From: Rhizomicrobium sp.
Lineage (GTDB): Bacteria; Pseudomonadota; Alphaproteobacteria; Micropepsales; Micropepsaceae
Reading direction: 5' to 3'
Assembly (NCBI GenBank): GCA_037200385.1
Contig: JBBCGL010000001.1
Coordinates: forward strand, 1 to 64,000
DNA length: 64,000 nt
Of the stretch, positions 6,655 to 61,604 are shown piece after piece (within the stretch, counting starts at the first letter, position 1; each line of letters opens with the position of its first letter). The notes below the pieces were generated by a model. It saw only the letters and a list, made by a program, of their open reading frames with translations. It had not been told where the DNA came from and searched no databases. The translations under genes and the position numbers were made by a program.

Positions 6655-7161
6655 AGGCGCTGTCCGTGCCGCCGCTGCGATCCATCGCGACGGCGGCGAC
6701 CACGCTTGCGAAACGGCCGGCGTCGCCTCGCGCATGAAGATCCGGAAGGAAAGCCGGGCGCTCAGATGGCGGGCGGGATGAGGCGATCAGCGTGATCTAT
6801 CGCGGCGGATGCCGGACTCGATCTGCGCGCAGGTCGCCGACGTGTTGCCGTCCGGGGCCGGACGGCTGATGAGCCGATCGCGGACGCTTCGTTTTCGTTG
6901 CGATGGCTCTCGCGGCGACGCGAGGCTTGTGCGTTCGGCATCTGCGAATTCCCGTGAATTGCCCGATCGTATCGGTTTTCTCCAGGGGGCACACCGCAAC
7001 GGCAGCCTCACTTGCCGCGCCGGCAACGCATCGGATCGGTTTTCTCCAGTTGGCGCATCGCTTTTCGTTCACATACTTCGACCCGCATCTATGGCGATGT
7101 TCGTCGGCTCGTCATGCGTGGTCCGTGATCGGACTTGCGCAGGGTGGAAGAGAGGTCAGCT
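6655..7161. other. 507-bp non-coding leader region of the TpsA gene with a 15-bp direct repeat
   Basis: No convincing gene is present; the short open frames have no ribosome site or recognisable product. The stretch contains ATCGGTTTTCTCCAG twice (6971-6985 and 7035-7049), exactly 64 bp apart and followed by similar bases (GGGGC, TTGGC). It probably holds the promoter and a long 5' leader of the exoprotein gene. Confidence 0.6.
6971..7049 (+). repeat. Pair of 15-bp direct repeats upstream of the TpsA gene
   Basis: ATCGGTTTTCTCCAG occurs at 6971-6985 and again at 7035-7049, identical in all 15 bases. The 64-bp spacing is about six helical turns, so both copies would face the same side of the DNA, as paired activator sites do. 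The function is unknown. Confidence 0.6.
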
Positions 7162-14388: not shown

Positions 14389-16181
14389 AGCGGCGGCGAG
14401 CCGAGGCTATGACCGCCTTGCGCGTTGCGTTCACGGCGTTGCTGCTGGGCTTTCTGCCGCTCGCGCCCGCCGCGGCGCAGGATTTCGGCAGTGTCGCGCC
14501 GCATCAGCCGGCGGCGCCGGCACAAGCCGCCGCGCCCCAGCCGCGTGCGGCGGTGCCTGCTGCAGTGCCTCCTGCGCAAAATGTCGAGCTGATCGGCCAT
14601 CTCAAAGGCCTGACGCTCGAGCCGTCCATCGACCGCATCAACCGCAACGGCGTCGTCACGGCCGGCGTCGTCATCGAGGTGCCTTTCGCCGAAGACCCCG
14701 AATTGCGCGAAATCCTCCAGACCTTTATCGGCCGCCCGCTGTACACCGCCGACCTGACGGCCATCGCCAGGATCGTCACGGACCATTATCGCGCCCACAA
14801 CCGGCCGGTGGTCGAGGTGAGCTTTCCCGAGCAGGACGTCAGCACCGGCGTCGTGCAGGCGGTGGTCACGGAGTCGCGCGTCGGGCGGGTCCGGTTCTCG
14901 GGCAACTACTACTTCGGCAAAGGTCTGCTCGCGAGCGAACTCGGCATGCGGCGCGGCGATCCGGTCGATTTCGGCGTGCTGGGCGCCGGCCTCAATGTGC
15001 TGAACCGCAATCCGTTCCGCGCCGTGAACGTGGTGCTGCAGAAGAGCGATCAAGCCGGCGCCACCGACCTCGCGTTCACGGTCGATGAGCGGCTTCCGCT
15101 GCGCCTGTACGCATCCTTCGACAACACCGGCGTCGCGATCACCGGCCGCGACCGCTACAGCGCCGGTTTCAACTGGGGCAACGTCCTGGGCCTCGATCAG
15201 CAGCTCTCCTATCAGTTCATCACTAGCCCCGATCTGTGGCGCGAGCGCGATCGCGGGCCGGGCCTGTCGAGCGCGCCGCGCTTCATCGCGCATTCGGTCA
15301 ATTACGTCGCACCGCTGCCCTGGGGCGATCTGTTCAACCTGTTCGGTTCCTACGTCACGCAGGTGCCCGACCTCGGGCCCGATTTCGGCCAGACCGGCCA
15401 CAGCCTGCAGTTCGGCGCGCGCTATCAGATGCCGCTGCGGGGCTCGAGCCGCTTCACCCAGCAGCTCCAGCTCGGCTTCGACTACAAGCGCGCCGACAAC
15501 AACCTCGCGTTCGGCGGCACCGGCATTTTCGCCAGTGCGACCGACACCGAACAGTTCCTGCTGATCTATGACGGTACGCTCGACGACGCGCTGGGACAGA
15601 CCGGCATCGAGAGCACACTGGTCTACAGCCCCGGCGGCCTCTCGGCGGGCAACTCCACGGCGGTGTTCCAGGCCTCCGGCGTGACCGGCGCGCATGCGAG
15701 CTATCTCTACGGCAATCTGCGCCTGACGCGCCTCGTCTTCCTGCCCTGGCATCTCAGTCTCGTGGCGCGGGTGGACGGCCAGTTTGCCTCGACCGAGCTT
15801 CTGCCGAGCGAACAACTCGGCGCCGGCGGGATCGACAGTGTGCGCGGCTATGAAGAGCGCGCCGCCAACGGCAGCGACGGCTACCTTGCGAGCCTGGAGC
15901 TGCGTGGTCCCACCATCGCGCCGCTGCACGATCTGGGTTTGTCCGCAGCCGATCAGCTCCAGCCGCTGGCATTCTGGGACTACGGCAACGTCTCGTTCAA
16001 GAACGCGCAAGCGTCGGGTCCGCGAGCCGCGGAGCTGCAAAGCGTCGGCGTCGGCGCGCGCTATAGCGTCGGCCGCTATCTCGATGTGCGCTTCGACTAT
16101 GGCTGGCAGATCGAGAAGCTGCCGGTTTCCGGCGCGGGATTGGGCAACCTGGCCACCGTCTCGGTGACGCTCGGCTACTAA
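14385..16181 (+). CDS. TpsB-type two-partner secretion transporter (ShlB/FhaC/HecB family)
   Basis: The 598-aa protein (or 590 aa from the ATG at 14409) has a signal peptide ending near AAAQD, a proline/alanine linker, a POTRA domain (about residues 70-165; IEVPFAEDPELREILQTFIG, HYRAHNRPVVEVSFPEQDV) and a ShlB/FhaC barrel. It ends with LATVSVTLGY, a terminal aromatic outer-membrane signature. VRGYEERAANGSDGY matches the conserved VRGY loop of TpsB and Omp85 proteins. The GTG at 14385 overlaps the TpsA stop (GTGA) and gives the signal peptide a basic KRRR n-region, which favours it. It translocates the upstream exoprotein across the outer membrane. Its 3' end overlaps the convergent regulator gene by 4 bp. 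Confidence 0.93.
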   Translation: MKRRRAEAMTALRVAFTALLLGFLPLAPAAAQDFGSVAPHQPAAPAQAAAPQPRAAVPAAVPPAQNVELIGHLKGLTLEPSIDRINRNGVVTAGVVIEVPFAEDPELREILQTFIGRPLYTADLTAIARIVTDHYRAHNRPVVEVSFPEQDVSTGVVQAVVTESRVGRVRFSGNYYFGKGLLASELGMRRGDPVDFGVLGAGLNVLNRNPFRAVNVVLQKSDQAGATDLAFTVDERLPLRLYASFDNTGVAITGRDRYSAGFNWGNVLGLDQQLSYQFITSPDLWRERDRGPGLSSAPRFIAHSVNYVAPLPWGDLFNLFGSYVTQVPDLGPDFGQTGHSLQFGARYQMPLRGSSRFTQQLQLGFDYKRADNNLAFGGTGIFASATDTEQFLLIYDGTLDDALGQTGIESTLVYSPGGLSAGNSTAVFQASGVTGAHASYLYGNLRLTRLVFLPWHLSLVARVDGQFASTELLPSEQLGAGGIDSVRGYEERAANGSDGYLASLELRGPTIAPLHDLGLSAADQLQPLAFWDYGNVSFKNAQASGPRAAELQSVGVGARYSVGRYLDVRFDYGWQIEKLPVSGAGLGNLATVSVTLGY

Positions 16182-17519: not shown

Positions 17520-18740
17520 CTACCGTCCCGCGGCAGATTGGGCCTGTGCTTCTGACGCCGGGATCAGGTCGGCCGCCACGGATATCCGGGGCTCTTCGAG
17601 GCCCGTCGGCACGACGTCATGAAACAGGTGCGAGGGGAAGAGGATCAACCGGCCTTCGACCGGTTTGATGAACCTCGTGCCCCAGCACGGCCGATAGCCG
17701 CCGGTGTAGCGCTCGCATTTTCCAAGCACCAGGGAACCTCTCTCGTCGTTCGCCTCCGATACGATGCGGGGAACGCGAACATAGTAGACGCTCGAGATGT
17801 AACCGGCGCGATGGATGTGTTCGCCATTGGCGCCGTCGCGGCGCAGGACGACATTGGCGCTGAACAAGGTTCCCGCTTCGGGCGGCGGCATGACCGCATC
17901 GAGACCCAGGGCGGATAGCTGCCGGATATAGGAGTCCATGGCGTCCCGGATGAAAGCCAGGAGCGCCGTCATGGCGGGCTGCGACCGCGTTTGCGGCGCG
18001 TAGTCGATCTCGAGGCCATCGCGCTGTGCGCGGGCCGGCCTGACGTCCGCCAGGATCTCCTCCGCCAGCAGTCTGTTGAAATTGGCGAGGCCACCGAACG
18101 CGGCGGGCGGATCGAACGACATCGCCACGACGTGGCGGTCGAGGTCGACGAGCTTCGACGCCTCGCTTGTGCGGCCCAGCCGGCTGAACGCGATGGCGCG
18201 GTGCGCGCGTACGATCGCGGTGTCCTGATAACGCCGAGCCAGGCCGTCGCAGAACGCAAGCAAAGTCGTCGGATCCGGATCGGGCGCGAGCGGCGCAAGC
18301 AGGGCATGCATGGCATTCAACCGTCTGTCGCCCAGTTCGAGCACGGACAGAAACGCCTGCCGTGCCTCTTCGGAACGGCCGAGCAGCGAGAGCGCCTGGC
18401 CGCGATGAAAGGCGATCTCCGCCGTCGCAGGCACCGCGTCGCTCCGCATGCAGACGTCGAGCGCCGCTTGGCCTTCGCCGAGCTCCAGATAGCATTGCGC
18501 CAGCAAAATCCAGGCGGTGCGATCGCGCGCTTCTCGCGCTACGGCCTGCTCGAAGGCTTGCGCGGCCGCGCGAAAATCGCCCGTGGCCACATACGCCTCG
18601 CCAAGCGATGCGAAAAGCGCCGCATCGTCCGGCCGAACGGCGATCGCCTTGTGCAGCAGCGAGATGGTGATTCCGGTCGGAAGGCTTCGGCTCGTCTCGG
18701 TGGTCAGCCAATGCATGGGCCGACAATGCGGAACTTCCAC
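17520..18740 (-). CDS. TPR protein with C-terminal 2-oxoglutarate/Fe(II) dioxygenase-like domain (copy A)
   Basis: The 406-aa protein has tetratricopeptide repeats over about residues 25-190 (DDAALFASLGEAYVATGDF, RTAWILLAQCYLELGEGQAA) and a C-terminal domain of the 2OG-FeII_Oxy_5 type. Its likely iron-ligand segments are GEHIHRAGYISSVYYV and LILFPSHLFHDVVPT, followed by RISVAADLIP. The start is GTG at 18740 or ATG at 18716; neither has a good ribosome site. It is a tandem paralogue of the next upstream gene, only 27 bp away, and both read with the A-PCP-TE gene. A role in hydroxylating a peptide or carrier-bound intermediate of this locus is inferred; the substrate is unknown. Confidence 0.8.
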   Translation of the reverse strand: MEVPHCRPMHWLTTETSRSLPTGITISLLHKAIAVRPDDAALFASLGEAYVATGDFRAAAQAFEQAVAREARDRTAWILLAQCYLELGEGQAALDVCMRSDAVPATAEIAFHRGQALSLLGRSEEARQAFLSVLELGDRRLNAMHALLAPLAPDPDPTTLLAFCDGLARRYQDTAIVRAHRAIAFSRLGRTSEASKLVDLDRHVVAMSFDPPAAFGGLANFNRLLAEEILADVRPARAQRDGLEIDYAPQTRSQPAMTALLAFIRDAMDSYIRQLSALGLDAVMPPPEAGTLFSANVVLRRDGANGEHIHRAGYISSVYYVRVPRIVSEANDERGSLVLGKCERYTGGYRPCWGTRFIKPVEGRLILFPSHLFHDVVPTGLEEPRISVAADLIPASEAQAQSAAGR

Positions 18741-18767
18741 GAGCCAGACAAGGTCGCGCTCACGCGT

Positions 18768-19973
18768 CTATGTCACCACGGTCTCCCCGGCGGGATGGCC
18801 GGCTTGGGTCGGCACGACGTCGAACGCGACGCATATGCGTTCGCCGGGCACCTTGCAGGGTTCGGTGGCGTGCGTGACAAAAGAGGGGAACAGGACGATC
18901 CGCCCCGGCACCGGCTCGATCGGCGTGATGTCCCAGGGGGCCGCTGCCGAAAGGCCGCGGATGGGCGACCCGACCAGCAGCGCACCGCTATGGCGTTCCG
19001 TCTCCGGTTCCCGCGGCGCGGTGACGTAGAAGACGCCGCTCAACCAGCCCGACGGATGCATATGCGCCGTCTGGCGCCCCGTCGTGCCGTTGAAGATCAC
19101 GGCCCAGGACGAAAGGCGCACGCTCGCCGGCGGCTGCGAGACGTAAGGGTCCGCGCCGCCCTGTCGCTCGCGCGCATAGTCGTCGACGGCATGCTTGATC
19201 TGGCGCAAGAGGATATCCAGTGCCGCCTCGCCCTTGAGACCGATATGCATCGCTTGACGGCCGTTGCGTGTCGCCTTGCGCTTCGGATCCGGTATCAATG
19301 TCGGATTGTGCCGGATCTCGTCTGCCAGCGCGGCGCAAAACGACTCGCGGGAGTCGAATTCCCCCGGAATGCGCAAATCTCCGACAGATAGCAGGTTGGT
19401 GCTCGCCATCAGGGCCGTCGCCTCCGCCCGTTCGCCCAGTTGGGCGAGACCATGCGCCAGGAAACAGCGCGCACCCGCGTCGGCAGGGTTGGTCGCGAGC
19501 GCCGCGCGGCATTTCGCGACAAGCGCCCGCAGGTCGGCGTCCGACTTCGCCGTTTCCCACGCCTCATTCAGCGCGAAGCGGCTGATCTGCAAGATCTCGT
19601 CTCTTTGCACACCGAGTTCGTTCAGGCGGTCCCGGGCACCGGCCTCGGTGAGCGCGGATTTGAGCAGGGCGTATGTCTCGGCATCCTGCGGTGCATCCGC
19701 GAACAGCGCTTCGGCTTCGTCGACGGCACGGTCCAGTTCGCCCGTGGAGAGCAGGAGCGTGATGAACGACCTTCTACCCGCGAGATCTCCGCCAAGCGCC
19801 GCTGCGGCGCGCTGCAGTGAGTCTTCGATATCGGCGGCACGCCCGGCCTGGTGCTGCGTGAGGACCAGCGTCCTCCAATTGTCGGCCTTGCCCGGATTCC
19901 GCTCCGCCGCGATTTGCGCCAGTTTCAGCATGCCGTCGAGAACGCCCCAACCTGGTTCGATTTGCCAGCGCAT
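18768..19973 (-). CDS. TPR protein with C-terminal 2-oxoglutarate/Fe(II) dioxygenase-like domain (copy B)
   Basis: The 401-aa protein has the same layout as its downstream neighbour. TPR-like helices fill the N-terminal half (ADNWRTLVLTQHQAGRAADI, AGARCFLAHGLAQLGERAEA). The C-terminal dioxygenase-like fold has HMHPSGWLSGVFYVT and PGRIVLFPSFVTHATEP, which supply the expected histidines, then RICVAFDVVP. This copy keeps the family pattern HxHP..WLSGVFYV more closely than copy A, where it reads HIHRAGYISSVYYV. The start is an ATG at 19973. Two diverged copies in a row may act on different residues of one product, or one may have lost activity. Confidence 0.82.
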   Translation of the reverse strand: MRWQIEPGWGVLDGMLKLAQIAAERNPGKADNWRTLVLTQHQAGRAADIEDSLQRAAAALGGDLAGRRSFITLLLSTGELDRAVDEAEALFADAPQDAETYALLKSALTEAGARDRLNELGVQRDEILQISRFALNEAWETAKSDADLRALVAKCRAALATNPADAGARCFLAHGLAQLGERAEATALMASTNLLSVGDLRIPGEFDSRESFCAALADEIRHNPTLIPDPKRKATRNGRQAMHIGLKGEAALDILLRQIKHAVDDYARERQGGADPYVSQPPASVRLSSWAVIFNGTTGRQTAHMHPSGWLSGVFYVTAPREPETERHSGALLVGSPIRGLSAAAPWDITPIEPVPGRIVLFPSFVTHATEPCKVPGERICVAFDVVPTQAGHPAGETVVT

Positions 19974-20067
19974 CTAAACGGTCGTTCCTTCGAAATCTTG
20001 CACGGCATATCCTGGTCTTGATACGGCACGGGCCCGGCAGGGGTTCCGCCCTAGGCCTTTCGATTCT

Positions 20068-22758
20068 CTACGCGGCCTGATTGTGTTGCGTCCGGTCCGC
20101 CCCAACGAGGGTCGCGACGATCTGCGCCGACGTCGGCTCCGTCACGATCTCGAAATGATTTCCCGGCAGCTCGATGATCCGAAGCTCGGAACACCACGCC
20201 CTCCAGCCCAGGTCCGGAATGTGCCGCGATAAGCTGTAGGGAGCCGTGCTGACGAACAGCGTCAGGGGCGCCGGCAGCGGCGCGGCAAGGACGTTCTTGA
20301 ACGCTCTGACGCGCGCACGTCCCATCGCGATCCTCCGCGCGTCGAGCGCCGCCTCCTTGAGCCCCAAACGCGACAGCAGCGCGATGAAGGCGTGGAGCTG
20401 CGTGAGCATCCGGCGATTGACCATCTGGTTTGCAGCGAAACGTGCCACGCCTATGATCGCGAAGCCGACCCGCCCGCCGGCCAGCGCGATGCGCTCTTCC
20501 AGGGGCGGACGGAACGCGGCGGACATGGCCTTTTGATTATTGCGAGCGTCGATGGCCGCGTCCGTCGGACCATCGATCACACCGACGAATTCGACCGCGA
20601 TCCCGCGTTCGAGCAAGCGCCGCGCGGCTTCGACGGCGATCCGGCTGCCGAAGGAGCAGCCCACCACCCAAAGCCGGGCTGGCCGCCCCGCCGCCTCGAA
20701 GGCGCCGTCGAACTCCGCAAAAACCCGGCCGCGGTCCGCGGGGCCCAGCAGATCCGGCCCGGCGTGACGGTAGTCCATCAAGACGACGTTGAAATGCTCG
20801 CTCAGCTTGCGGGCAAAACGGGCCATCGTGAAATCGGCGCCGAAAATCCCCGGAAAGAGGATCAAGGTCGGGCGCCCATCCGTACCGCGCGCGGGCGTCT
20901 TTCCGGCAAGTGCCGACAGACGCATCGCCAACTCGCTCGGCCGCGTCGTCTCGTCGAACAGATCGTTGGGAAGATGGCGGTCGAGGCGCCGTTCGATTGC
21001 CAGGAGGAGCATCATGCCTTGCAGGGAATCGCCGCCTGCTTCCGCGAACGGCAAATCGCGCCGATACGCATCTGCGCCCAACAAGTCGCTCCACGCCTTT
21101 CCGACGATGTCGGCTTTGAGCCTGGCCTCGGTGGCGGCAGCGAAGGCCGTGCCGCGGACGCGCTCGGCATCCATGCGCTCCAACGCGATCAGGTCGACCT
21201 TGTCGGTGGCCAGTTTCGGCAGAACGTCCAACCGGATGATCTCCGCAGGATGGAACGCGGGCGGCAGATGCGCAGCGCACCACGCACGGATGGATTCCGT
21301 ACCGGGAGAAGCTTCGCAGACACAATAAGCGATAGGCTTCGTCTCGGCTCCGGTCATGCGTGCGATCACAGCTGTGTCCTGGACCGCTGGATGCGAGGCG
21401 ATGACGGCCTCGATCGCGCCCAGGTTTACGGTGTTGCCGCGCACCTTTATCTGCCGGTCGCGGCGGCCGATAAATTCGAGCAATCCATCCGGCAGCACGC
21501 GGCCGAAATCGCCCGTGTGATACTCGGTCATGCCGGGATGCCGCGCCGAGTCGACGAATTGCGTCTTCGTCAGCGCCTCGTCGCGCCAATAGCCTGGCGA
21601 AAGCCCCTGGCTGGCCACGACGATTTCGCCCACCTCGCCGGGCGCCACGGCCGCGTCGTTTTCATCGATGAGCGCGACGTGCAGGTCGGCCCGCGGAAAG
21701 CCGACGGGCACGAGAGGACGTTCGAGCGGCGTCTCGTGATCGACGAACCAAGCGGCATAGGGGCGTGTCTCCGTCGTTGCGATGTCGAGGCTGAGGCGGC
21801 ACGTTCGCGGGAATACCTTTCGGTAAAGCTCGACATCGCGCCGCGTCACCCGGTCTCCATTCAGCCGCACGATCCGGATATCGCCGGCCGCGTCGCCGTC
21901 GGTCTCCGCGCCGCCGAACAGGGCACGGAATGCGCTGGGGACCGAATGGAACACGGTGACGTTCTGCCGTCGAAGCTCGCGCAACGCCGCCGAAAGCCCG
22001 AGACGCTTCAGGTCGACGATGGCGAGCCTTGCGCCGCTCAGAAGCGCACCGAAAATATCGCGGTTCGAGATGCTGACGCTGGGAGAAAACAGCAGCGAAT
22101 GGCAGTCGCCGGGGCCAAGGCCCATGAGATCGATGAAATGCTCCATGTCGTAGACAAGGCCGGATTCGCTGTGGCAGACGCCCTTCGGCTCGCCGGTGCT
22201 GCCGGACGTGTAAAAGATCGTGGCGATCCGGTCGGCGGCGGTGCCAGGCGAGGGTGGCGGCGTGTATCCCGATGACGGGGGCGGGATTGCGATCGGCCGG
22301 ACCGAAGGGTCGAGCGCCCGGGCAATGGCGGCCGTCGCGTCGTTTACGACCACGCCGGTCATCCCCGAATGCGTAACGATGCGCAGGTTGCGCTTTTCGG
22401 GAAAGCCGCTGTCCATCGGAACATATGTCTTCCCGGCCAGCAGCATCGCCACGATGGCGACGATATATTGGGTCGAGAGGGGCAGTAGAATTCCGATCGG
22501 ATCGGCGAACGCGGACAGTGTCCCGGCCAACGCACCGGCATGCGCGATCAACTCGCCGAAAGTGATGGCCGTTTCGCCATCGTCGACGGCAACGGCCCGC
22601 GGCTGTGTCGCGGCGCGCGCGAGAATCCGCGATGCGAGCGCATTCGTGTTTTCGGCCTGCCAGATGCGGTCCAAGGGTTGGCTCTTATGACGGTCGTGGC
22701 GATTACGGGACATGCGTATATGCGTGTCAACATGCCGATCGACCCACTTGCCAGACAT
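20068..22758 (-). CDS. Stand-alone NRPS-type A-PCP-TE enzyme (locus 1)
   Basis: The 896-aa protein holds, in order: an adenylation domain (about residues 40-540), a carrier domain with GGDS (phosphopantetheine site S577), and a thioesterase (about 630-885, nucleophile in GCSFGS, S701; likely acid in VIDGP, D728; His in GNHFEIV). Adenylation motifs are YTSGSTGEPKG (183-193), YHTGDFG, GRRDRQIKVRG and K519 in TDKVD. The A4 region reads FSPSVSISNRDIFG, without the Asp that binds the alpha-amino group, and the A5 core is DIATTET instead of YGPTE. The substrate is therefore probably not an ordinary alpha-amino acid. There is no condensation domain. The start at 22758 lies 35 bp after the cupin stop; ATG 22713 is an alternative. 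A paralogue lies at 53025-55682. Confidence 0.88.
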   Translation of the reverse strand: MSGKWVDRHVDTHIRMSRNRHDRHKSQPLDRIWQAENTNALASRILARAATQPRAVAVDDGETAITFGELIAHAGALAGTLSAFADPIGILLPLSTQYIVAIVAMLLAGKTYVPMDSGFPEKRNLRIVTHSGMTGVVVNDATAAIARALDPSVRPIAIPPPSSGYTPPPSPGTAADRIATIFYTSGSTGEPKGVCHSESGLVYDMEHFIDLMGLGPGDCHSLLFSPSVSISNRDIFGALLSGARLAIVDLKRLGLSAALRELRRQNVTVFHSVPSAFRALFGGAETDGDAAGDIRIVRLNGDRVTRRDVELYRKVFPRTCRLSLDIATTETRPYAAWFVDHETPLERPLVPVGFPRADLHVALIDENDAAVAPGEVGEIVVASQGLSPGYWRDEALTKTQFVDSARHPGMTEYHTGDFGRVLPDGLLEFIGRRDRQIKVRGNTVNLGAIEAVIASHPAVQDTAVIARMTGAETKPIAYCVCEASPGTESIRAWCAAHLPPAFHPAEIIRLDVLPKLATDKVDLIALERMDAERVRGTAFAAATEARLKADIVGKAWSDLLGADAYRRDLPFAEAGGDSLQGMMLLLAIERRLDRHLPNDLFDETTRPSELAMRLSALAGKTPARGTDGRPTLILFPGIFGADFTMARFARKLSEHFNVVLMDYRHAGPDLLGPADRGRVFAEFDGAFEAAGRPARLWVVGCSFGSRIAVEAARRLLERGIAVEFVGVIDGPTDAAIDARNNQKAMSAAFRPPLEERIALAGGRVGFAIIGVARFAANQMVNRRMLTQLHAFIALLSRLGLKEAALDARRIAMGRARVRAFKNVLAAPLPAPLTLFVSTAPYSLSRHIPDLGWRAWCSELRIIELPGNHFEIVTEPTSAQIVATLVGADRTQHNQAA

Positions 22759-22793
22759 GGCGGTTCCGCCCGTCAATGGCGGCCGCAGGAGCG

Positions 22794-23654
22794 CTATGCC
22801 TTCGGTTTGCGCACCCCTGCGATGATCGCGTCGCCGAACGATAGCGCGTCGATCTTCTCCAGAAGCCGTCTTTTGACGTGCGCTTCGACCGTGTCCAATT
22901 CCGACGGATCGGCCAGCCGCGTTACGGGCTGCCGGAACAACTCCTCCGACAGCATCCCGAGAACCATGTCGTAGATCGGCCGCCACGCCACCAGGGGCTC
23001 GAAGAATATCCCGAGGTGAAGGGACCGCTCCGGTCCGTTCTCGCAGTGATGCCAGGAGCCCGCGGGCAGGAAGAGAAAGTCGCCCGGCTGCAGCACCTCA
23101 TCGAATATGGGCGCCCCTTCGGGGGGTGGGGCCTTCGGCATTCCCTTTGTCGGATTGGCCGCCGTGGCGTGGTGGATTTGCCAGCGCTTGCTCCCCTCGA
23201 GCTGCAGGATGATGAGATCTTCGTCGTCATAATGCTGCTGGAAGGCGCCGCCCGCCCCGACTGTGACAATGACGCCGACCTGTATCTTCTCGGGAATATG
23301 CGAACGGATATCGTCGCAAAGCGCTGCCAATGCCGGGATATGCGTTTCCACGGGCACCACGACAAGACTGGTGTTCCCCCGCATCTGCGTATCCAGCCGC
23401 CCAAGATCGATTCGCTTGTTGTCCGAATAGAAAATCCGCTGCACGACGACCGATTCGCGCTGAACGCGGAGGCTGTCGAGCGGAAAGTCCGGCTTTGAAA
23501 GCAGTTTGCGGAGCGTCGTCCAATCGAGGAGGCCCGCGAATCGGTTCCCGCCTGGGTTGCGCCAGAACAGCAATTCGCGGCGGCGCAGCAAAGCCAGGAA
23601 CTCAGCCACGGTCAGCGGCGCGACCAATTCCGCAAGGTTCCGGACCGTTTCCAT
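22794..23654 (-). CDS. JmjC-like cupin dioxygenase
   Basis: The 286-aa protein matches the JmjC/cupin-4 type of Fe(II)/2-oxoglutarate oxygenase. The metal ligands are visible as HYDDED (H141, D143) and SWHHCE (H202 or H203) after the turn PGDFLFLPAGS, with RWQIH between them. Bacterial members hydroxylate ribosomal proteins or peptide substrates. It is the first gene of the minus-strand group that continues with the A-PCP-TE and two TPR-dioxygenases, and it is divergent from the precursor peptide. Hydroxylation of the peptide or of the A-PCP-TE product is a reasonable inference. The ATG at 23654 is preferred because the sequence before it (to 23717) does not resemble the family. Confidence 0.85.
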   Translation of the reverse strand: METVRNLAELVAPLTVAEFLALLRRRELLFWRNPGGNRFAGLLDWTTLRKLLSKPDFPLDSLRVQRESVVVQRIFYSDNKRIDLGRLDTQMRGNTSLVVVPVETHIPALAALCDDIRSHIPEKIQVGVIVTVGAGGAFQQHYDDEDLIILQLEGSKRWQIHHATAANPTKGMPKAPPPEGAPIFDEVLQPGDFLFLPAGSWHHCENGPERSLHLGIFFEPLVAWRPIYDMVLGMLSEELFRQPVTRLADPSELDTVEAHVKRRLLEKIDALSFGDAIIAGVRKPKA

Positions 23655-23793
23655 CGTATAACCGCCACTTTGAGACCTAAATACCACAGCGAGGCGCACG
23701 CCGGCGCAGAACTGCATCGTTCACGGCAGACGCTTGTGATTTTTCTTGCGCAAAATACCAGGCTTCCGTAGGAACCATCCTGCATGCTGCCGG

Positions 23794-23844
23794 ATTACAC
23801 AACTAGGCGTAGTGTCGGTTGGATGGGTATGAGTTTTGTGTAAT
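23794..23844. promoter_or_regulatory. 9-bp inverted repeat between divergent arms of locus 1
   Basis: ATTACACAA (23794-23802) and TTGTGTAAT (23836-23844) are perfect inverted copies separated by 33 bp. They sit in the 263-bp region between the divergently read cupin gene and the precursor peptide gene. This is the expected place for a shared operator. The surroundings are AT-rich compared with the rest of the locus. Confidence 0.55.
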
Positions 23845-23917
23845 ATGCTTATCTGCGTTAACGCCGTCCACATCGCACGGGGACGGCAATGTAGTTACAA
23901 GGCTAGGAGCCAAGCGC

Positions 23918-24067
23918 ATGACGGATAATCATCCCAAGTCGGACGTGCAAAACGTGGTGCCCGTGCGCAAGGAACCCTACACGAAGCCGTCCTTTCACCG
24001 CATTGGCGCAGACGAGGCGGAAACAGGCATCCAGTTCGGTCCCGAGATTCTGATCCTCTTGAGTTGA
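23918..24067 (+). CDS. Putative RiPP (lasso-like) precursor peptide, 49 aa
   Basis: The 49-aa peptide has a charged N-terminal leader and a short hydrophobic tail. The leader contains PYTKPSFHRIG, which fits the YxxP...G recognition motif read by PqqD-type RRE proteins in lasso and related RiPP systems. A Thr follows, as in lasso leaders (segment ADEAET). The C-terminal part GIQFGPEILILLS is a plausible core: if cleaved after the Thr, Gly1 could be joined to Glu7. If the usual lasso rule (Thr at -2) applies, the ring would be abnormally small, so the exact core is uncertain. It is immediately followed by RRE and cyclase genes on the same strand. The ATG at 23918 is preceded by CTAGGAG. A short GC palindrome (24069-24078) directly after the stop may lower read-through into the enzyme genes. 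Confidence 0.72.
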   Translation: MTDNHPKSDVQNVVPVRKEPYTKPSFHRIGADEAETGIQFGPEILILLS

Positions 24068-24088
24068 TCGCCGCGGCGGTAATAGCTC

Positions 24089-24427
24089 GTGGCAGTGGAT
24101 GCAGATGAGATGGGGAACGTCGCTCCATTGCGTCCGGACTCGCGCGTCTCGCGCAGTGGCAAGATGGTCGAAGCCGAGGTCAACGGCGAGATAGTCATAT
24201 TGCATGTCGAACTGGGCACTTGCTACGGCCTGAATACGGTTGGGTCGCGCGTCTGGCAACTCATCGCTTCGCCGATGCCGGTCGCCGACATCGTCGCTGC
24301 GATCCAGAGCGAATATGTGGATGTTCCCGACGACTGCGAGCGGGATGTCCTTGAGCTGCTCGATGGTCTGCGTTCGGAAGGATTGGTCACGGTCGAGGTG
24401 ATATCGCAGGCGACCGCAGAGCAATGA
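24089..24427 (+). CDS. PqqD-family RRE (RiPP recognition element) protein
   Basis: The protein (112 aa from GTG 24089, or 105 aa from ATG 24110) shows the PqqD fold. Paired strands MVEAEVNGEIVILHVELGTC and YGLNTVGSRVWQLI are followed by helices ending in LLDGLRSEGLVTVE. Such proteins bind the leader of a precursor peptide and present it to processing enzymes (PqqD, lasso B1). It lies between the precursor and the cyclase gene and overlaps the latter by 4 bp. In lasso clusters a leader peptidase (B2, transglutaminase-like) is usually fused to or next to B1; none is found here. Confidence 0.88.
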   Translation: MAVDADEMGNVAPLRPDSRVSRSGKMVEAEVNGEIVILHVELGTCYGLNTVGSRVWQLIASPMPVADIVAAIQSEYVDVPDDCERDVLELLDGLRSEGLVTVEVISQATAEQ

Positions 24428-26358
24428 CTGCCATCGCCGGGTTGTGGCGCATCGGCGGTCCCAACGACGCCGCGGCGGCCTGTGCGCGCATGCTGGCCGC
24501 ACAAAAATTATATGGACCGCATGCGACGGACCAATGGGATGACGGTTTCGTCGCCCTCGGCAGGGCCTTGTTTCGCCTGTTGCCGGAGGACATTCACGAT
24601 CGGCAGCCACTCGTTGGTGCAGGCGGCAAGTATGTCCTCGTTGCGGATATACGTCTCGACAATCGCGAAGAGCTGTCGCGCGCCCTGAACATCGCGCCAG
24701 GACGCGCGCTGTGCGATGCCGAGATCCTGTTGGCCGCATTCGAGACTTGGGGCGAAGCGATGCTCGAACGCATCGTCGGCGACTATGCGTTCGTCGTCTG
24801 GGACTCGGCCCGGCGCCGCTTCCTGCTGGCTCGCGATCCCTTGGGACAAAGGCCGCTGCACTATCACCGCGCGCCGGGTTTGTTCGCCTTTTCCAGCATG
24901 CCGAAGGGTTTGCACGCGCTGGCCGAGATCGAACGGGCGCCGGACGTGGAGCGCGTCTCGGAATTCCTGGTCTTGTTGCCGGAGACCGGACCTCAGACGA
25001 ATTTCAAGACCATCGAACGCGTCGAGCCCGGCCACATCGTCACGTTTCACGCCGGAGGCATATCCTCCCGCCGCTATTGGGAGCCGTCGCGGCCAAGCGG
25101 GCGGCCCAGGAGTGCCGGCGATTACGCCGAGGGCGTGCGGTGGCATATGGACCAAGCGGTGCGGGCAAGGCTGCGTGGTGCGGTCCGCGCGGCCGGGACG
25201 CATCTGAGTGCGGGTCTCGACAGTTCCGTCGTCACGGCGACCGCGGCGCGCGAGATGGCGGCGACGGGCGGACGGATCGTGGCGTTCACATCGGTCCCCA
25301 GCGAAGGCTTCGCAGCGCGGCCGGGCGATGTCCGCATCGCCGACGAGGGGCCCTTGGCAGCGGCGACGGCGGCGCGCTATTCGAATGTCGAGCATGTCCT
25401 GGTCCGCGGCGACATGGCATCGGCGCTCGATCTGCTCGATCGCTATTTTTACCTGTTCGAACAGCCCGTCCGCGATCTGCCCAACGGGACATGGTTCTGC
25501 GCGATCAACGATGCGGCACGCGACCGCAAATTGTCGGTGTTCCTGCCCGCATACATGGGCAATCTGAGTTTCAGCTACAATGGCTTCGAGCTCCTGCCGC
25601 AGGATCTCGCGGGCGGTCATTGGCTGCGGTGGTCGCGCGAAGTCGCCGGCGTGGTCCGCAAGCGGCACATGACACTGCTGGCCGCCCTTGCCGCGAGCCT
25701 GGGCCCGCATATCCCGCCCGGGCTGTGGCGCTGGCTGAAGATCGCCATCCAAGGCCGGGCGCCGAGCGTGCTCACGCACACGGGCATCAACCCGCGGCAG
25801 CTTGCCGAGCTCGATCTGGCGGCACGGGCGCGGGCGCGGGACATGACGTTCGAATACCGTCCGCGCAAGGACGGCTTTTCGACACGGCTCTGGGCCTTGC
25901 GCCGCACGGATATGGGCAACATCAACAAAGGCTCGTTGGGGGGCTGGGGCGTCGATCATCGCGATCCGACGACCGATCGGCGGCTCGTCGAGTTCTGCCT
26001 CGCCACGCCGACCGAGCAATTTCTGTCCGGCGGCATCTCGCGCGCGCTTGCCCGCCGTGCCTTTTCCGACCGCGTTCCGGCGTCGGTGCTGAACGAACGC
26101 CGCCGCGGTCTTCAGGGCGCGGACTGGTACGAGGGTATTCGCACCCTTCACGCCGAGTTTGCCGAAGAGATCGCCCGGCTGGACGATTGCTCTGCCGCGG
26201 CGGAAACGCTCGATCTCGCGCGCCTGCGGGCTCTGACCGACGCATGGCCGCAGGATGGCTGGGATGGCGACGCCGTCGCGCTTTCCCATCGCATTGTGCT
26301 CACGCGCGCCCTGGCCGTCGGGCATTTTTTGCGCAAGGCGTCCGGCGGCAACCGCTAG
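24424..26358 (+). CDS. Asparagine-synthetase-like protein, probable lasso-type cyclase (McjC-like)
   Basis: The 644-aa protein has an N-terminal class II glutaminase-like domain and a C-terminal ATP-dependent synthetase domain with the PP-loop SAGLDSS (S262-S268). Residue 2 is Thr (MTAIAGLW), so the cysteine that releases ammonia from glutamine is missing. This is typical of lasso macrolactam synthetases and argues against asparagine synthesis. It would adenylate an Asp/Glu side chain of the precursor and close the ring with the core N-terminus. The start overlaps the RRE stop (ATGA). The 3' end is convergent with the TPR-methyltransferase gene, 7 bp apart. Confidence 0.86.
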   Translation: MTAIAGLWRIGGPNDAAAACARMLAAQKLYGPHATDQWDDGFVALGRALFRLLPEDIHDRQPLVGAGGKYVLVADIRLDNREELSRALNIAPGRALCDAEILLAAFETWGEAMLERIVGDYAFVVWDSARRRFLLARDPLGQRPLHYHRAPGLFAFSSMPKGLHALAEIERAPDVERVSEFLVLLPETGPQTNFKTIERVEPGHIVTFHAGGISSRRYWEPSRPSGRPRSAGDYAEGVRWHMDQAVRARLRGAVRAAGTHLSAGLDSSVVTATAAREMAATGGRIVAFTSVPSEGFAARPGDVRIADEGPLAAATAARYSNVEHVLVRGDMASALDLLDRYFYLFEQPVRDLPNGTWFCAINDAARDRKLSVFLPAYMGNLSFSYNGFELLPQDLAGGHWLRWSREVAGVVRKRHMTLLAALAASLGPHIPPGLWRWLKIAIQGRAPSVLTHTGINPRQLAELDLAARARARDMTFEYRPRKDGFSTRLWALRRTDMGNINKGSLGGWGVDHRDPTTDRRLVEFCLATPTEQFLSGGISRALARRAFSDRVPASVLNERRRGLQGADWYEGIRTLHAEFAEEIARLDDCSAAAETLDLARLRALTDAWPQDGWDGDAVALSHRIVLTRALAVGHFLRKASGGNR

Positions 26359-26365
26359 AACGCGT

Positions 26366-27880
26366 TCATGGCATGGGCTTTCGGCACCAGAAATCGTACA
26401 TCTGCGAGAATAGAAGAGGTTCGCGCCGTTCCATCTCCGCCCATGCGGCGATGTCGCGGAACAGGACATCAGCCGGATTCTCGGCGCGATACCGTTCGGC
26501 TTTTGCGCGCGTGGGCAGGCTGAAGGCCAGCAGGCGAAGTCCGACCCGCGCGATTGCCGCTGAGATACGCGGCACGTCGAAGAAGACTTCTTGCCGGTGC
26601 AGCAGCAGATCGTGAATCCCGGCAAGCGTGTAGAAGTCCAGCGAGCCGGCCACCAGGCCGGGCGCCTGTGCGATAAGCCGGCGGCGGACCGTCCGCAGCA
26701 AATCTGCGTCGACTGGAAGCTGGGCCAGGTCTGCGATGATCTTTTGCGCCGCGTGGATGCGTAGCCGCGCGGTCCTGCTGTACAGCATGACCCGCATCAC
26801 GCCGCCGGGCACGAGGGCGTCGGCGAGAGCGCCCCAGCCTTTCTCGGGATCGGGCAGATGGTGCAGCACGCCGCTGCTGACGATGGCGTGGAAGCGGCGG
26901 TCCAATGCCGAAACATCGTGCAGGTCCAGCGGCCGGAATTCGATGTTCCGCAGCCCCATGCGCGCACATCTCTCCGTGCCGTAGCGCAGGCTCGCTTCGC
27001 TAATATCGATGGCGGTGATGCGGGCATCGGGGAAATGCGAGGCCAGGATCGCCGTTTCGCGTCCTGTGCCGCAGCCGGCGACCAGGATATCGGCTGCGAC
27101 CGGAATGTTGTCCGGTCCATCCGGGTCCAGCTTCTTGACCAGTGCCGGAAGGGTCCCCTGCTTGGATACCATGATGCGAGACCACGGCGGGTAGGGCCAA
27201 CCTTCATATTGCTTCGCCACCGCGCCGGTCACCGGGTCGGCAAAATCCCGCGAGCTGCCGCTGTCATGGCGCAGCGGCGCATAGGCATGCGCGATGGGCG
27301 TTTCGCCATCGGCCTCCAGCCGCGCCTGTTCGGCCTCATCGATGAGCCAGGCTCCGCCATTGTGGACGGCCTGCGTCGCCAGCGCTTCGACCGCATTGGG
27401 GAATTCGCGCCAGCTTTCGCGCAACAGCAGCCATCGGCGCAGCGCAGTAAGGGGCAACTCGACCTCGAGGTTGCGAACGAAGGTTTCCCGGAGCAAATCG
27501 AGCGCAAGGCCGCAATGTTCGAGCCATGTCGCCAAGTCGCGGGGATCTGCCGCGATGCCGGCGCGAAGCAACGCAGACTCCCGCAACAACAGTCTCCAAC
27601 CGGCAGCACCGATGTAACCGGGATCGACCTGGGGATCGGCGAGCAACCCTCGCAATGACTGCGCCATGTCGGCGGTCACGAGATCCGGATTGTCCCGGAG
27701 CAGACGCGCGACCAGTCCCTTCGCGGCGCGGCTGCCGGGCGCCGCCGTCAACGCGCTCCACGCTGCCGCCAGGGCCTCTTGGGGGCGCCCGGATGCTTCC
27801 AGCGCATGCGCCAAGCTTTCCGATCGTGTCGTGTCAGGGCCGCTCATTGCCGGCGGCAACGGGGAGAGCATAGGCGACAT
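26366..27880 (-). CDS. TPR-containing class I SAM-dependent methyltransferase
   Basis: The 504-aa protein has a helical TPR-like N-terminal half (LAHALEASGRPQEALAAAWS) and a class I methyltransferase domain. Motif I is ILVAGCGTGRE, then ITAIDISEASL and HAIVSSGVLHHLPDPE (motif IV/post-I region). The C-terminal part resembles extended methyltransferases found near other TPR proteins (segment YEGWPYPPW ahead of the domain). The ATG at 27880 has GGGAAG close upstream; other in-frame ATGs occur at 27871 and 27847. It is read with the radical SAM gene (40-bp gap). It may methylate the peptide product; the acceptor is unknown. Confidence 0.85.
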   Translation of the reverse strand: MSPMLSPLPPAMSGPDTTRSESLAHALEASGRPQEALAAAWSALTAAPGSRAAKGLVARLLRDNPDLVTADMAQSLRGLLADPQVDPGYIGAAGWRLLLRESALLRAGIAADPRDLATWLEHCGLALDLLRETFVRNLEVELPLTALRRWLLLRESWREFPNAVEALATQAVHNGGAWLIDEAEQARLEADGETPIAHAYAPLRHDSGSSRDFADPVTGAVAKQYEGWPYPPWSRIMVSKQGTLPALVKKLDPDGPDNIPVAADILVAGCGTGRETAILASHFPDARITAIDISEASLRYGTERCARMGLRNIEFRPLDLHDVSALDRRFHAIVSSGVLHHLPDPEKGWGALADALVPGGVMRVMLYSRTARLRIHAAQKIIADLAQLPVDADLLRTVRRRLIAQAPGLVAGSLDFYTLAGIHDLLLHRQEVFFDVPRISAAIARVGLRLLAFSLPTRAKAERYRAENPADVLFRDIAAWAEMERREPLLFSQMYDFWCRKPMP

Positions 27881-27920
27881 CTTCCCGCCGAGGTTTGGCA
27901 GTGCGCGCGCCCCACGGCGA

Positions 27921-29756
27921 TCAGCTTGCCATTGCGGGAGCCGCTTCCCGGCGTGGCGCTGCCGTGCTCGCCGCGGTCCGGGATCTGGTGACGACGCTCA
28001 GCAGGAGACCTTCATGCTCGACCAGGAAATGCCGATCGAGGAGGAAACGGACGATATGCGCCGCTGCGCCTTCGAGGGCGTCGCGCGGCTGCGGACGTTC
28101 GAAATGTTTCAGCGTTTCGAACGCTTCGCGCGAAATGACGGTCAGCCCCTGCACTGCGACGCTGCGCGTGTCCGCGATCGCCAGCTGCCCTCCGCCGCCA
28201 TCCACGACGCGGAGCACCGGAAGATGATCGGGCCGGTGCCATTGATGCTTCCAGACGCCGATCGCCAGTCGCAGCTTGTCGATTGTGCCCTTGTCCTCCA
28301 GCAACGGCGTCGAATAGCTGCCGGAGAAGTGATAGGCGATATCGGATAGCGGTGCGTCGTCGGGATAGAGGCCGGTGTAGCCGGGTACGGGAACGACGTT
28401 CTCGATGCCGAACTGTTCCGGCGTGTTGTGATACGGGCTGAACCTGTCGATGATGATCCTGTTCAGGCCGGATGGCGGCTGCAGATGCGGGATTTTGGGC
28501 AACAGCCGCAGAACGGCCTCGTAATCTTCCAGGGTTTCGCCCGGAAGCCCATACAGATAGTTCCACGCGACCCTGACCCCCATCGATTTGCATGACCGCA
28601 GGAGGCTCAGATTCTGCAGTCCGGAAACGCCCTTTCGCATCAGCTTCAGCACATGGGACGACAGCGACTCGATGCCGGGTTGGATTGCGTCGATGCCCGC
28701 TCGCGCCATGCTTTCGATCTGGTCGTCGCGCAGATTGGCCTTCACTTCGTAGAAGAGCCTGGGGCGCGCCGGCCAGTCTGCCAGTTTCGGCAGCAGCGTC
28801 TTGAAATAGTTGAGCGGCATGATGTTGTCCGCCAGGAAGAAGCGTTTGGCATCCCAGGCGCTCGTCAACGCCTCGATCTCGCTCAGCACGCGGTCGGCGG
28901 GTTTTTGGCGGAATTCCATGCCCTCGCCATTGAGGCCGCAAAAGGTGCAATGGTGCTTCTCGCCCCACCAGCAGCCGCGTGACGTCTCCATGGTGAGAAA
29001 TTCCGGAAGCTCCGGCGGCAGACGCCCGTCGCGCTGCTCCTGCCGCAACGCCAAGAAATAGTCGGAAAAATCGGGCGCAAAAACGCGGCGGAAATCGCTG
29101 ATCGGCTCGCACGCGATCAGTTGTTTTGGCGGCCGGACACCATCGCGTACCAGCCGTTCGCAGAACTCCGGAAATTCGGAATCCGCCTCGCCGACGAAGA
29201 AGTGATCTATCCAGGGGAAGGCGCCGGCAAGACCGGCGCCCATGGGGCCGGCCACGTTCGCACCGCCCATGACGACGATGATGTGCGGCGCCGCGGCCTT
29301 GACCCGCCACGCCAATCCGGCGGCCGCCAAATTCTGCTGAAACGTGGACGAGATGCCGAGAATGCGCGGATTGCGCGCAACGATCCGGCGCGTCATCGCG
29401 TCTTGGTACGGACCGATCTCCGGCGCAAGCCCGTCGTAGCGTTGTTGAAACTCCCGCGGAAATCTCGCGGGCGGGGCGGCGGCCGACTTGCTGTCCTGCG
29501 GATACGCGTGTGGCCGAAAGAGATGTTCGCCCAGAAGCGCGCTCATGGGCGAATCGCAAACCGCCTTGTAGGCGTCATATCCGATCTGCGACGCCAGCAA
29601 TATGCTGCCGTAAACGATTTCCACGCTGAGGCCGCGCGCACGGCAAGCCGAAGCCAGGACCGACGTTCCGAGCGCTGGAAAATTGATGGCGTCGAAAGGC
29701 GGGACGACCAGACAGACGTCCAATTGCGCGTCGTTCTCGGGGCCGCTTCGGTCCAC
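27921..29756 (-). CDS. B12-binding radical SAM RiPP maturase (C-methyltransferase type)
   Basis: The 611-aa protein has an N-terminal cobalamin-binding-like domain (LVVPPFDAINFPALGTSVLA, VVMGGANVAGP) and a radical SAM domain. Its cluster motif is SRGCWWGEKHHCTFCGLNG (C262, C270, C273), spaced Cx7Cx2C instead of the canonical Cx3Cx2C. That pattern is the hallmark of the 'RiPP maturation radical SAM C-methyltransferase' family (rSAM_ocin_1). FYEVKANL and IQPGIESLSS follow as in that family. The GTG start at 29756 is supported by AGAGG seven bases upstream. It probably C-methylates an unactivated carbon in the locus 1 peptide. It is the strongest single indication that the surrounding genes form a RiPP cluster. 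Confidence 0.88.
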   Translation of the reverse strand: MDRSGPENDAQLDVCLVVPPFDAINFPALGTSVLASACRARGLSVEIVYGSILLASQIGYDAYKAVCDSPMSALLGEHLFRPHAYPQDSKSAAAPPARFPREFQQRYDGLAPEIGPYQDAMTRRIVARNPRILGISSTFQQNLAAAGLAWRVKAAAPHIIVVMGGANVAGPMGAGLAGAFPWIDHFFVGEADSEFPEFCERLVRDGVRPPKQLIACEPISDFRRVFAPDFSDYFLALRQEQRDGRLPPELPEFLTMETSRGCWWGEKHHCTFCGLNGEGMEFRQKPADRVLSEIEALTSAWDAKRFFLADNIMPLNYFKTLLPKLADWPARPRLFYEVKANLRDDQIESMARAGIDAIQPGIESLSSHVLKLMRKGVSGLQNLSLLRSCKSMGVRVAWNYLYGLPGETLEDYEAVLRLLPKIPHLQPPSGLNRIIIDRFSPYHNTPEQFGIENVVPVPGYTGLYPDDAPLSDIAYHFSGSYSTPLLEDKGTIDKLRLAIGVWKHQWHRPDHLPVLRVVDGGGGQLAIADTRSVAVQGLTVISREAFETLKHFERPQPRDALEGAAAHIVRFLLDRHFLVEHEGLLLSVVTRSRTAASTAAPRREAAPAMAS

Positions 29757-52286: not shown

Positions 52287-52531
52287 CAGGCGCCCGATGT
52301 CTCTGTCGCATGCGTGGATTTGGCCGCTGACGCAACTGCGGACGATGGACATTTCATGCCTGAATGCAACACGTCGGCTTTAGGCTGGCCCGTCTGACTG
52401 CGGACACTCGATAGTCCCGCAATGCCTGGGGCATTGCCCACCGTTTCATCCGCTGCGCGAATGGGTGGAAATACCCGGCGATGCAACCCAGGGATGCCGT
52501 CCAACGGGTGTTCCGCATTGATCGTAACCAT
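52286..52531 (-). CDS. Small ORF (81 aa) translationally coupled to FkbM gene
   Basis: The ORF starts with an ATG at 52531 preceded by AAAAGGAAAAA, a good ribosome site, and ends with TGA overlapping the FkbM ATG by one base (TGATG). No domain was recognised. The segment RRVFPPIRAADETVGNAPG echoes the leader end of the two precursor-like peptides (hydrophobic-Pro, Arg, then ET), so a third precursor is possible. The remainder is Ser/Ala/Thr-rich with one Cys. It could also be a leader ORF only. Confidence 0.4.
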   Translation of the reverse strand: MVTINAEHPLDGIPGLHRRVFPPIRAADETVGNAPGIAGLSSVRSQTGQPKADVLHSGMKCPSSAVASAAKSTHATETSGA

Positions 52532-52647
52532 TTTTTCCTTTTGCATCATGGTTGTTACGGCGGCGTGCTCCATCTTGCAGTGCACACATACTGTGTCCTA
52601 AAGTAGCTCTGGGCTATACCGGCCGCACATCAGGAGATTTTGGTTTT

Positions 52648-52815
52648 ATGACGACGAAGAGCGAGATCGAGACCTCCGTGGAGGAACTGGCCGGACAGAA
52701 TTCGAGGCCGACCCTCAAGGCATGGGGCCAGCCGACCTACCAGAAGTTCCCGCTTCGCGGGTCCGAGACGGCCAATACGAATTCGAATTTCGACGGCACC
52801 AACTATTCGTCTTGA
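52648..52815 (+). CDS. Putative RiPP precursor peptide, 55 aa (locus 2)
   Basis: The 55-aa peptide has an acidic N-terminus (SEIETSVEELAG), a middle segment with W and PTYQKFPLRGSET, and an Asn/Ser/Gly-rich tail (ANTNSNFDGTNYSS). The middle segment aligns loosely with PYTKPSFHRIG...ET of the locus 1 precursor (Y-x-K-x-x-[FL], R, G, ET), suggesting recognition by a PqqD-type protein. If cleaved after that Thr, Ala1 could be joined to Asp8. AGGAG lies 11 bases before the ATG and a hairpin follows the stop. It sits between FkbM and A-PCP-TE genes. No cyclase gene is present in this locus. Confidence 0.6.
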   Translation: MTTKSEIETSVEELAGQNSRPTLKAWGQPTYQKFPLRGSETANTNSNFDGTNYSS

Positions 52816-52821
52816 TATAGT

Positions 52822-61601: not shown

Positions 61602-61604
61602 GCG

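Follow-up and report, generated by a model that had tools for sequence, protein, structure and literature searches.

The described lasso peptide clusters closest to the locus presented here are those of the HprK-kinase type—covering the paeninodin, Sphingobium yanoikuyae and BsfA types in the accessible parts of PMC8498205 and PMC10368454—together with the canucin cluster, in which, according to the accessible part of PMC9266682, the 2-oxoglutarate (2OG) hydroxylase CanE acts on the precursor with CanB1. The locus lies in the genome of Rhizomicrobium sp. (contig JBBCGL010000001.1), within a stretch, hereafter the window, that covers the opening 64 kb of a genome assembled as one contig of 5.0 Mb (G000). 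With the HprK-kinase-type clusters it shares the leader motif of the precursor, the split of the PqqD-type recognition element B1 from the leader peptidase B2, the cyclase C, the kinase in its orthologous loci and a C-terminal Ser, the latter being present in 23 of the 26 precursor-like motif open reading frames (ORFs) surveyed near cyclases; with the canucin cluster it has in common the presence of a 2OG oxygenase gene. Its radical S-adenosylmethionine (rSAM) protein scores well above the cut-off of TIGR03975, the rSAM C-methyltransferases of ribosomally synthesized and post-translationally modified peptides (RiPPs), and its single-module nonribosomal peptide synthetase (NRPS), built of an adenylation (A), a peptidyl carrier protein (PCP) and a thioesterase (TE) domain, exhibits the domain order and the intact catalytic residues of the termination modules EntF and SrfA-C, found by Foldseek, and of the A-T-TE enzymes RalA and AtrA. 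Judged by its genes, the cluster is genuinely of the lasso type and its tailoring genes are unusual; the peptidase is absent from it only locally, and its A-PCP-TE enzyme is associated with lasso-type genes in several lineages.

The lasso-like character, already proposed in an earlier sequence-only reading of the window, is borne out by the leader motif, B1 and C, as well as by orthologous loci with B2 and the kinase. The 49-aa precursor contains the canonical RiPP recognition element (RRE)-binding leader motif YxxPxLxxxGxxxxxT, with Phe replacing Leu. B1 reaches 67 bits with PF05402 (cut-off 23.4) and 59.3 bits with the lasso-specific model NF033536, i.e. under its cut-off of 80. The cyclase is above the cut-off with PF00733 (92 bits), its best NCBIfam match being the lasso cyclase model NF033535 at 277 bits, which is under the cut-off of 525; the glutaminase Cys2 is considered absent since the N terminus reads MTAIAG. 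The rSAM protein scores 566.6 bits with TIGR03975, twice the curated cut-off of 281.85. All the components named in the sequence-only reading—the 49-aa precursor, the PqqD-type RRE, the glutaminase-dead cyclase, the B12/radical-SAM maturase, the JmjC protein and the A-PCP-TE—are present where that reading had placed them. That reading had also ascribed tetratricopeptide repeats (TPRs) to two dioxygenases and to the methyltransferase: both 2OG oxygenases and the methyltransferase stand as such, but Pfam recognized TPRs only in the oxygenase at 17520-18740 and none in the methyltransferase.

The 49-aa precursor is conserved in related loci of three relatives. In two of them (L133 of G066 and L134 of G067) the genes are arranged in the order HprK-type kinase, B2, precursor, B1 and C, followed by the methyltransferase and rSAM genes on the opposite strand; in the third (L135 of G026) the kinase, B2, precursor, B1 and C have an rSAM gene at their other side, and the stretch read contained no relative of the methyltransferase. 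The cyclases of L133, L134 and L135 are 68, 67 and 61% identical to that of the window, respectively. From residue 26 to residue 49 the precursor does not differ between the window, L133 and L134, the 25 codons including the stop showing 11 and 13 synonymous but 0 non-synonymous differences from these two related species, while four non-synonymous changes separate the L135 precursor from that of the window; the segment N-terminal to the leader motif has diverged among the relatives. This pattern indicates strong purifying selection on the last 24 residues in related species. For C, B1, the methyltransferase and the rSAM gene, the non-synonymous divergence (dN) is ~0.2-0.3 of the synonymous one (dS). 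Precursor, B1, C, rSAM C-methyltransferase and methyltransferase form a lasso-type module conserved across related species.

Table 1 Genes of the lasso-type locus and of the adjoining operon in the window
Feature	Position	Strand	Basis and remarks
Lasso-type precursor, 49 aa	23918..24067	+	Y21xxP24xF26xxxG30xxxxxT36 leader motif; C-terminal part GIQFGPEILILLS
PqqD-type RRE (B1)	24110..24427	+	PF05402
Asn-synthetase-type cyclase (C)	24424..26358	+	PF00733; without N-terminal glutaminase Cys
Class-I methyltransferase	26366..27880	-	Pfam; adjoins the rSAM gene in L133 and L134 as well
B12-binding radical SAM C-methyltransferase	27921..29756	-	TIGR03975
JmjC_2 (PF08007) oxygenase	22794..23654 (23717 = possible ORF opening)	-	Divergent from the precursor
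A-PCP-TE, single-module NRPS	20068..22713	-	Pfam, alignment, model
2OG-FeII_Oxy_5 oxygenase (PF13759)	18768..19973	-	Pfam
TPR + 2OG-FeII_Oxy_5 oxygenase (PF13759)	17520..18740	-	Pfam

The methyltransferase and rSAM genes, both on the minus strand, are convergent with the cyclase gene, and the JmjC, A-PCP-TE and two 2OG oxygenase genes make up a minus-strand operon divergent from the precursor (Table 1). With regard to the starts, the ORF of B1 opens at GTG 24089 and the gene caller places its beginning at 24164, the ATG at 24110 (MGNVAPL) corresponding to where its L133 relative begins (MGNDAPL); for the A-PCP-TE, 22713 (gene caller) or the ATG at 22758 is likelier than 22986. No ABC exporter turned up among the Pfam-scanned genes of the window, no model search having been aimed at it. 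A pair of two-partner-secretion (TPS)/ShlB genes is located just past the cluster (window 7135-16181).

The A, PCP and TE domains of the A-PCP-TE are all above the Pfam cut-offs and its catalytic residues, i.e. the A10 Lys, the PCP Ser and the Ser-Asp-His of the TE, are intact. An AlphaFold model (mean pLDDT 81.4, pTM 0.57) retrieved by Foldseek the NRPS termination modules EntF, SrfA-C and ObiF1 on top, with the domains differently placed relative to each other; the comparison was driven mainly by the A domain, with root-mean-square deviations >20 Å in the whole-length rows, and gives no substrate. The site of Asp235 (GrsA numbering) is occupied by Ser in the window A domain according to an alignment to LgrA, so that the Asp typical of α-amino-acid-activating A domains is not present. 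Among 20 aligned A-PCP-TE-type proteins this column, read by eye as printed, contains Ser in 5, Val in 1, Ile in 12, Asn in 2 and Asp in 0 cases. According to the accessible part of PMC11253843, enzymes for hydroxy acids and some of those for hydrophobic substrates have a small or aliphatic residue at this site and one aryl-acid enzyme has Asn, McyG being an exception that uses an amino acid. By these residues, the substrate of the A-PCP-TE is probably a carboxylic acid other than an ordinary α-amino acid.

Concerning the distribution of this enzyme, homologues do lie near RiPP genes: lasso-type genes adjoin 10 of the 27 A-PCP-TE loci read with their flanks, these originating from a family search covering 96 genomes (11 loci), a class search (6 loci: G393 twice, G309, G120, G229 and G158) and further genomes (10). 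Left out of the 27 were G185 and G412 (large NRPS), two loci of G100 (contigs of 3-4 kb), two plasmid loci, a Chloroflexi match and three loci with an additional methyltransferase (MT) domain (A-MT-PCP-TE). The ten linked loci are those of the own genome at 20, 53 and 4818 kb, G035 C31, G065, G393 at 3710 kb, G540, G486, G503 and G527. It should be pointed out that at the 53-kb locus B1 is 7.5 kb and a precursor-like ORF ~200 bp away, that in G035 C31, with B1 adjacent, the contig ends within the A-PCP-TE gene, whose matched frame has one TGA, and that the TE was not recognised in the A-PCP-TE-type protein of G065. As for the unlinked loci, those of G502, G526 and G518 end within ~0.5 kb downstream of the A-PCP-TE gene, where a cyclase would go unseen.

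In a tree of 22 rows, one fully supported clade unites the window protein, the 4818-kb paralogue that is 70% identical to it and adjoins a cyclase, the 53-kb protein and the G035 protein, of which all four members (4/4) are linked to lasso-type genes. The linked proteins of G065 and of G393 at 3710 kb are positioned on other branches, those of G065 and the A-MT-PCP-TE of G120 being long branches of unsure placement. Within the own genome, three of the four A-PCP-TEs are found at most 10 kb from a C or B1 of the lasso type, within a zone accounting for 4.1% of the genome (P ~2.6e-4 if independent, a condition to which the two copies of 70% identity do not fully conform). In G393, G540 and G486, which belong to the G393 family, another family of the class, the genes for A-PCP-TE, C, B1, precursor and a nucleotidyltransferase stand on one strand; in G527, of the same family, the genes detected were those for A-PCP-TE, C and the precursor, and a 6-kb contig of G503, likewise of this family, harbours A-PCP-TE, a kinase-like gene and C. 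The canonical leader motif is present in all four precursors found at these loci, and a sister locus with kinase, B2 and C exists in four of these five genomes, the contig beginning at B2 in the fifth. Other A-PCP-TEs of the family have no lasso genes nearby. A separate clade of six occurs in other surroundings, five of its members near TPS-like genes (L018, L020-L023), and one group is located near ABC-transporter-like genes. The A-MT-PCP-TE of the G120 type, adjoining lasso genes, is kept in three of three genomes; its link is loose, since gene calling gave no lasso gene for the stretch read in G229 and precursors only in G309. With the window A-PCP-TE as query, no match >35% identical outside the genus was obtained from 387 sampled genomes of the class (E 1e-66, two candidates scored per genome); the plasmid matches listed (25 of 2368 records) were 24-33% identical, the two neighbourhoods read having no annotated lasso genes, and a contig scan with a PCP-TE alignment yielded one distant, uninformative match in a Chloroflexi metagenome-assembled genome. 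The link between A-PCP-TE and lasso-type genes is thus recurrent, not universal.

A second lasso/NRPS locus, at window 51396-63412, contains a precursor-like ORF (P0010, 52648-52815, ending NFDGTNYSS), the A-PCP-TE (53025-55637) and B1 (63134-63412), along with an A-PCP, a C-A-PCP-nitroreductase NRPS and genes for a TE, a phosphopantetheinyl transferase (62417-63091), a luciferase-like and a major facilitator superfamily protein; beyond the window (60000-79999, L047), the region at 73.6-75.8 kb holds a cyclase gene and another precursor-like ORF. The lasso-type locus L097 (G120 C13:24000-43999) has two precursors, an A-MT-PCP-TE, a TPR-methyltransferase, two 2OG oxygenases and a PF00590 methylase, PF00590 being the family of the borosin N-methyltransferases.

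On balance, the evidence inclines, if modestly, towards a lasso-type cluster in which leader removal in trans and C-methylation are combined with a recurrent single-module NRPS tailoring partner. In such a pathway, as the protein families suggest, B1 would present the linear precursor to the rSAM enzyme for C-methylation and to the oxygenases for hydroxylation; the leader would be cut off in trans by a B2 from elsewhere, the best candidate being that at 4519995-4520432, and C would activate Glu43 and join it to the new N terminus, closing the macrolactam. The A-PCP-TE would load a carboxylic acid and its TE would hand the acyl group to the peptide as a strain-specific decoration, the only evident acceptors in the window core being Ser49 or a hydroxyl made by an oxygenase. 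A more tentative proposal, which we regard as possible yet doubtful, is that the enzyme of this A-PCP-TE clade is dedicated to lasso tailoring, activating a non-α-amino carboxylic acid on its own carrier and transferring it to a ribosomal peptide. The C-terminal Ser is, in the accessible part of PMC8498205, the residue phosphorylated by HprK-type lasso kinases, and the window precursor retains it without a kinase at the locus. A substitution of the A-PCP-TE for the HprK kinase, with acylation of this Ser, is a weakened idea, as the loci of G065 and G503 have both, the G393-family precursors lack a terminal Ser and L068 carries a fragment related to the kinase-like protein of G503.

Several observations weigh against the favoured pathway. 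The majority of the A-PCP-TE loci (17/27) are without lasso genes over the length read. Relatives of the A-PCP-TE, the JmjC and the 2OG proteins are absent from the three orthologous lasso loci (20 kb read each), which nevertheless encode the same or nearly the same core, and the A-PCP-TE operon runs on the strand opposite to precursor, B1 and C. For the JmjC protein, neither C, B1 nor A-PCP-TE was found nearby in any of eight loci with relatives of 42-50% identity (in one, L218, a 2OG relative is 7 kb away), and the possibility that it is lasso-specific is therefore not supported. None of the four precursors from the A-PCP-TE loci in the G393 family has Ser as its last residue, which rules out a terminal Ser as the acceptor in general. 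Finally, the canonical cut, with Thr36 at position -2, makes the acceptor Glu43 residue 6 of the core, under the 7-9 residues known from lasso rings; a 7-residue ring requires cleavage after Thr36, and a cut after Glu35 would make Glu43 residue 8.

The main alternative is that two neighbours are seen here, namely a lasso-type cluster and an independent small-molecule operon of A-PCP-TE, JmjC and 2OG genes, sharing an intergenic region via an island-like insertion. The operon would be comparable with A-T-TE enzymes of the RalA/AtrA type, which dimerise aryl keto acids and whose A domains are likewise without Asp235, and the absence of this residue from all 20 aligned proteins is what keto-, hydroxy- and aryl-acid enzymes would show; the orthologous lasso loci without the operon, the location of most A-PCP-TEs elsewhere, e.g. 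near TPS-like or ABC-transporter-like genes, and the unlinked JmjC relatives fit as well. Against it stand A-PCP-TE-type enzymes at lasso-type loci on four branches of the tree (counting the A-MT-PCP-TE of G120, and with the placement of G065 and G120 unsure), the fully linked own clade and, in the G393 family, the location of the A-PCP-TE gene on one strand with those for C, B1 and the precursor. We consider this alternative a serious one, albeit holding well short of an even chance. The claim of the sequence-only reading that the A-PCP-TE is a part of the cluster survives as a recurrent association (10/27 loci; 4/4 in the clade) and is qualified by the three orthologous loci without it and by the 17 unlinked ones.

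Less probable, although not negligible, is another topology, in which C would form an unthreaded macrolactam or another amide, a thought arising from the acceptor lying too near the canonical leader end. It draws on the position of Glu43 and on two further precursors, the paralogue at 4516443 in the own genome (L016 5444-5590) and that of L136 (11113-11274), in which the acidic residue stands, like in the window, 19 residues after the leader proline, the distance in the others of the own genome being mostly 20 or 22. However, the orthologous loci possess lasso genes including B2, and the processing of lasso leaders may depart from Thr(-2), as stated in the accessible part of PMC10368454.

The favoured pathway depends also on the source of B2. 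In the window, tblastn with the kinase and B2 of the orthologous loci returned chance-level pieces only (E 0.3-0.7) and hidden Markov models found neither. Kinase and B2 precede the precursor in the three relatives, and the window has there the divergent operon of the JmjC, A-PCP-TE and two 2OG genes; since the former are absent from the window and the latter from the 20 kb read in the relatives, the operon occupies the place of kinase and B2, and the core is common to strains lacking the operon at this place. The sequence-only reading had reported no leader peptidase and suggested searching the rest of the genome, which did reveal two B2 genes, at 4520079 and 4225271 (the latter spanning 4225229-4225654), both above the cut-off of the lasso B2 model NF033537; the absence thus holds for the locus, not for the genome. 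The locus of B2 at 4519995-4520432 also comprises a precursor, a kinase, B1 and the closest cyclase paralogue (52% identical to that of the window). In total, nine cyclase and seven B1 genes of this type occur in the own genome, at eight or nine loci, from 11 Asn_synthase matches, with 2615750 (by far the best, read as an ordinary asparagine synthetase) and 3844293 (a short piece) set aside, and 10 PqqD matches, with three at 4670-4675 kb set aside (no cyclase found there); seven of the nine cyclases are without B2 on the stretch first read. B2 is above the cut-off in all 13 further genomes, chosen for carrying such loci, and the 14 B2-bearing genomes checked include all nine in which an A-PCP-TE or A-MT-PCP-TE locus is linked. 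The single B2 found in G120 and in G309 (L199 and L200) has neither C nor B1 among the genes called within ~9 kb on either side, the cyclase loci lying elsewhere in the genome, which fits a supply in trans. Peptidases encoded outside the cluster are known for RiPP classes other than lasso peptides (PMC10885120, accessible part). Taken together, these observations make leader removal by a B2 supplied in trans the economical reading.

As an observation apart, seven lasso loci—L048 (1588-1591 kb) and L051 (4614-4616 kb) of the own genome, L098, L141, L143, L144 and L145—are flanked by three tandem genes for proteins of ~175 aa (e.g. MSxxYLGEIRMF..FPSRN), which we take to be tail-collar-like; several of the seven also have a ~98-aa protein with a YxAVFN-like ending.

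A local B2 is present at none of the nine C loci with an A-PCP-TE (9/9 without) and at 23 of the 37 without it (14/37 without), giving P values of 0.0015 for B2 and 0.015 for HprK that are only indicative, the rows being related and some contigs short. The rows were entered by hand from loci picked by similarity searches; L047 (C at 73.6 kb), L017 (the same locus as L053) and L197 (contig beginning at B2) were left out, L050 was scored without B2 despite one ~9 kb from its cyclase, beyond the stretch read, L095 without a kinase despite a weak match 8 kb off, and L068 with a kinase from a fragment. With rows related and chosen by similarity, the local mutual exclusion of A-PCP-TE and B2 is a lead, and since every such genome checked keeps a B2, it is no proof that the NRPS enzyme replaces B2. 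Indeed, that the A-PCP-TE system took over a B2 step (leader removal or core release), the peptide needing no B2, is very improbable: in its favour are the above table and two lineages without a local B2 where the A-PCP-TE stands while their orthologous or sister loci have it, whereas B2 is present, locally or elsewhere, in 14 of 14 genomes, 14 of the 37 loci without an A-PCP-TE are likewise without a local B2, the rows are not independent, and to our knowledge no leader-cleaving activity has been ascribed to A, PCP or TE.

The recurrent pairing of A-PCP-TE and lasso-type genes hints at what may be a new way of decorating lasso peptides, by which two normally separate biosynthetic logics would be joined, the argument relying on recurrence rather than on one odd neighbourhood. 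If true, an acylated, C-methylated and hydroxylated lasso peptide would be the product of a ribosomal/non-ribosomal hybrid route that arose several times in this class of bacteria and in which several clusters would share a leader peptidase acting in trans. The prediction would then be of lasso peptides, acylated and C-methylated, that escape genome mining for complete A-B-C-D clusters, because B2 is often absent locally, and the use of one B2 for many precursors becomes testable in genomes with a sole orphan B2.

With regard to the literature, radical SAM C-methylation is not listed in the accessible parts of the lasso reviews PMC13352647 (2026) and PMC8498205, the former also making, in that part, no mention of nonribosomal or thioesterase terms, and the review on RiPP methyltransferases PMC11285071 refers to lasso peptides, in its accessible part, only for C-terminal methyl esters. 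Neither an NRPS-type partner nor radical SAM C-methylation of a lasso peptide appeared in the titles and abstract openings of the open full-text literature searched, and a search there for A-T-TE enzymes yielded nothing on them. In comparison with the HprK-kinase-type lasso clusters, the window locus is without B2 or kinase and has instead the rSAM C-methyltransferase, the methyltransferase, two 2OG oxygenases, the JmjC protein and the A-PCP-TE. It differs from canucin by two PF13759 proteins and a JmjC protein. Among the PoyB/PoyC-like enzymes of TIGR03975, the rSAM enzyme of the window is distinguished by its place in a conserved lasso-type cluster. Lastly, in contrast to EntF, SrfA-C, RalA and AtrA, the A-PCP-TE of the window, devoid of a condensation domain, stands beside lasso-type genes.

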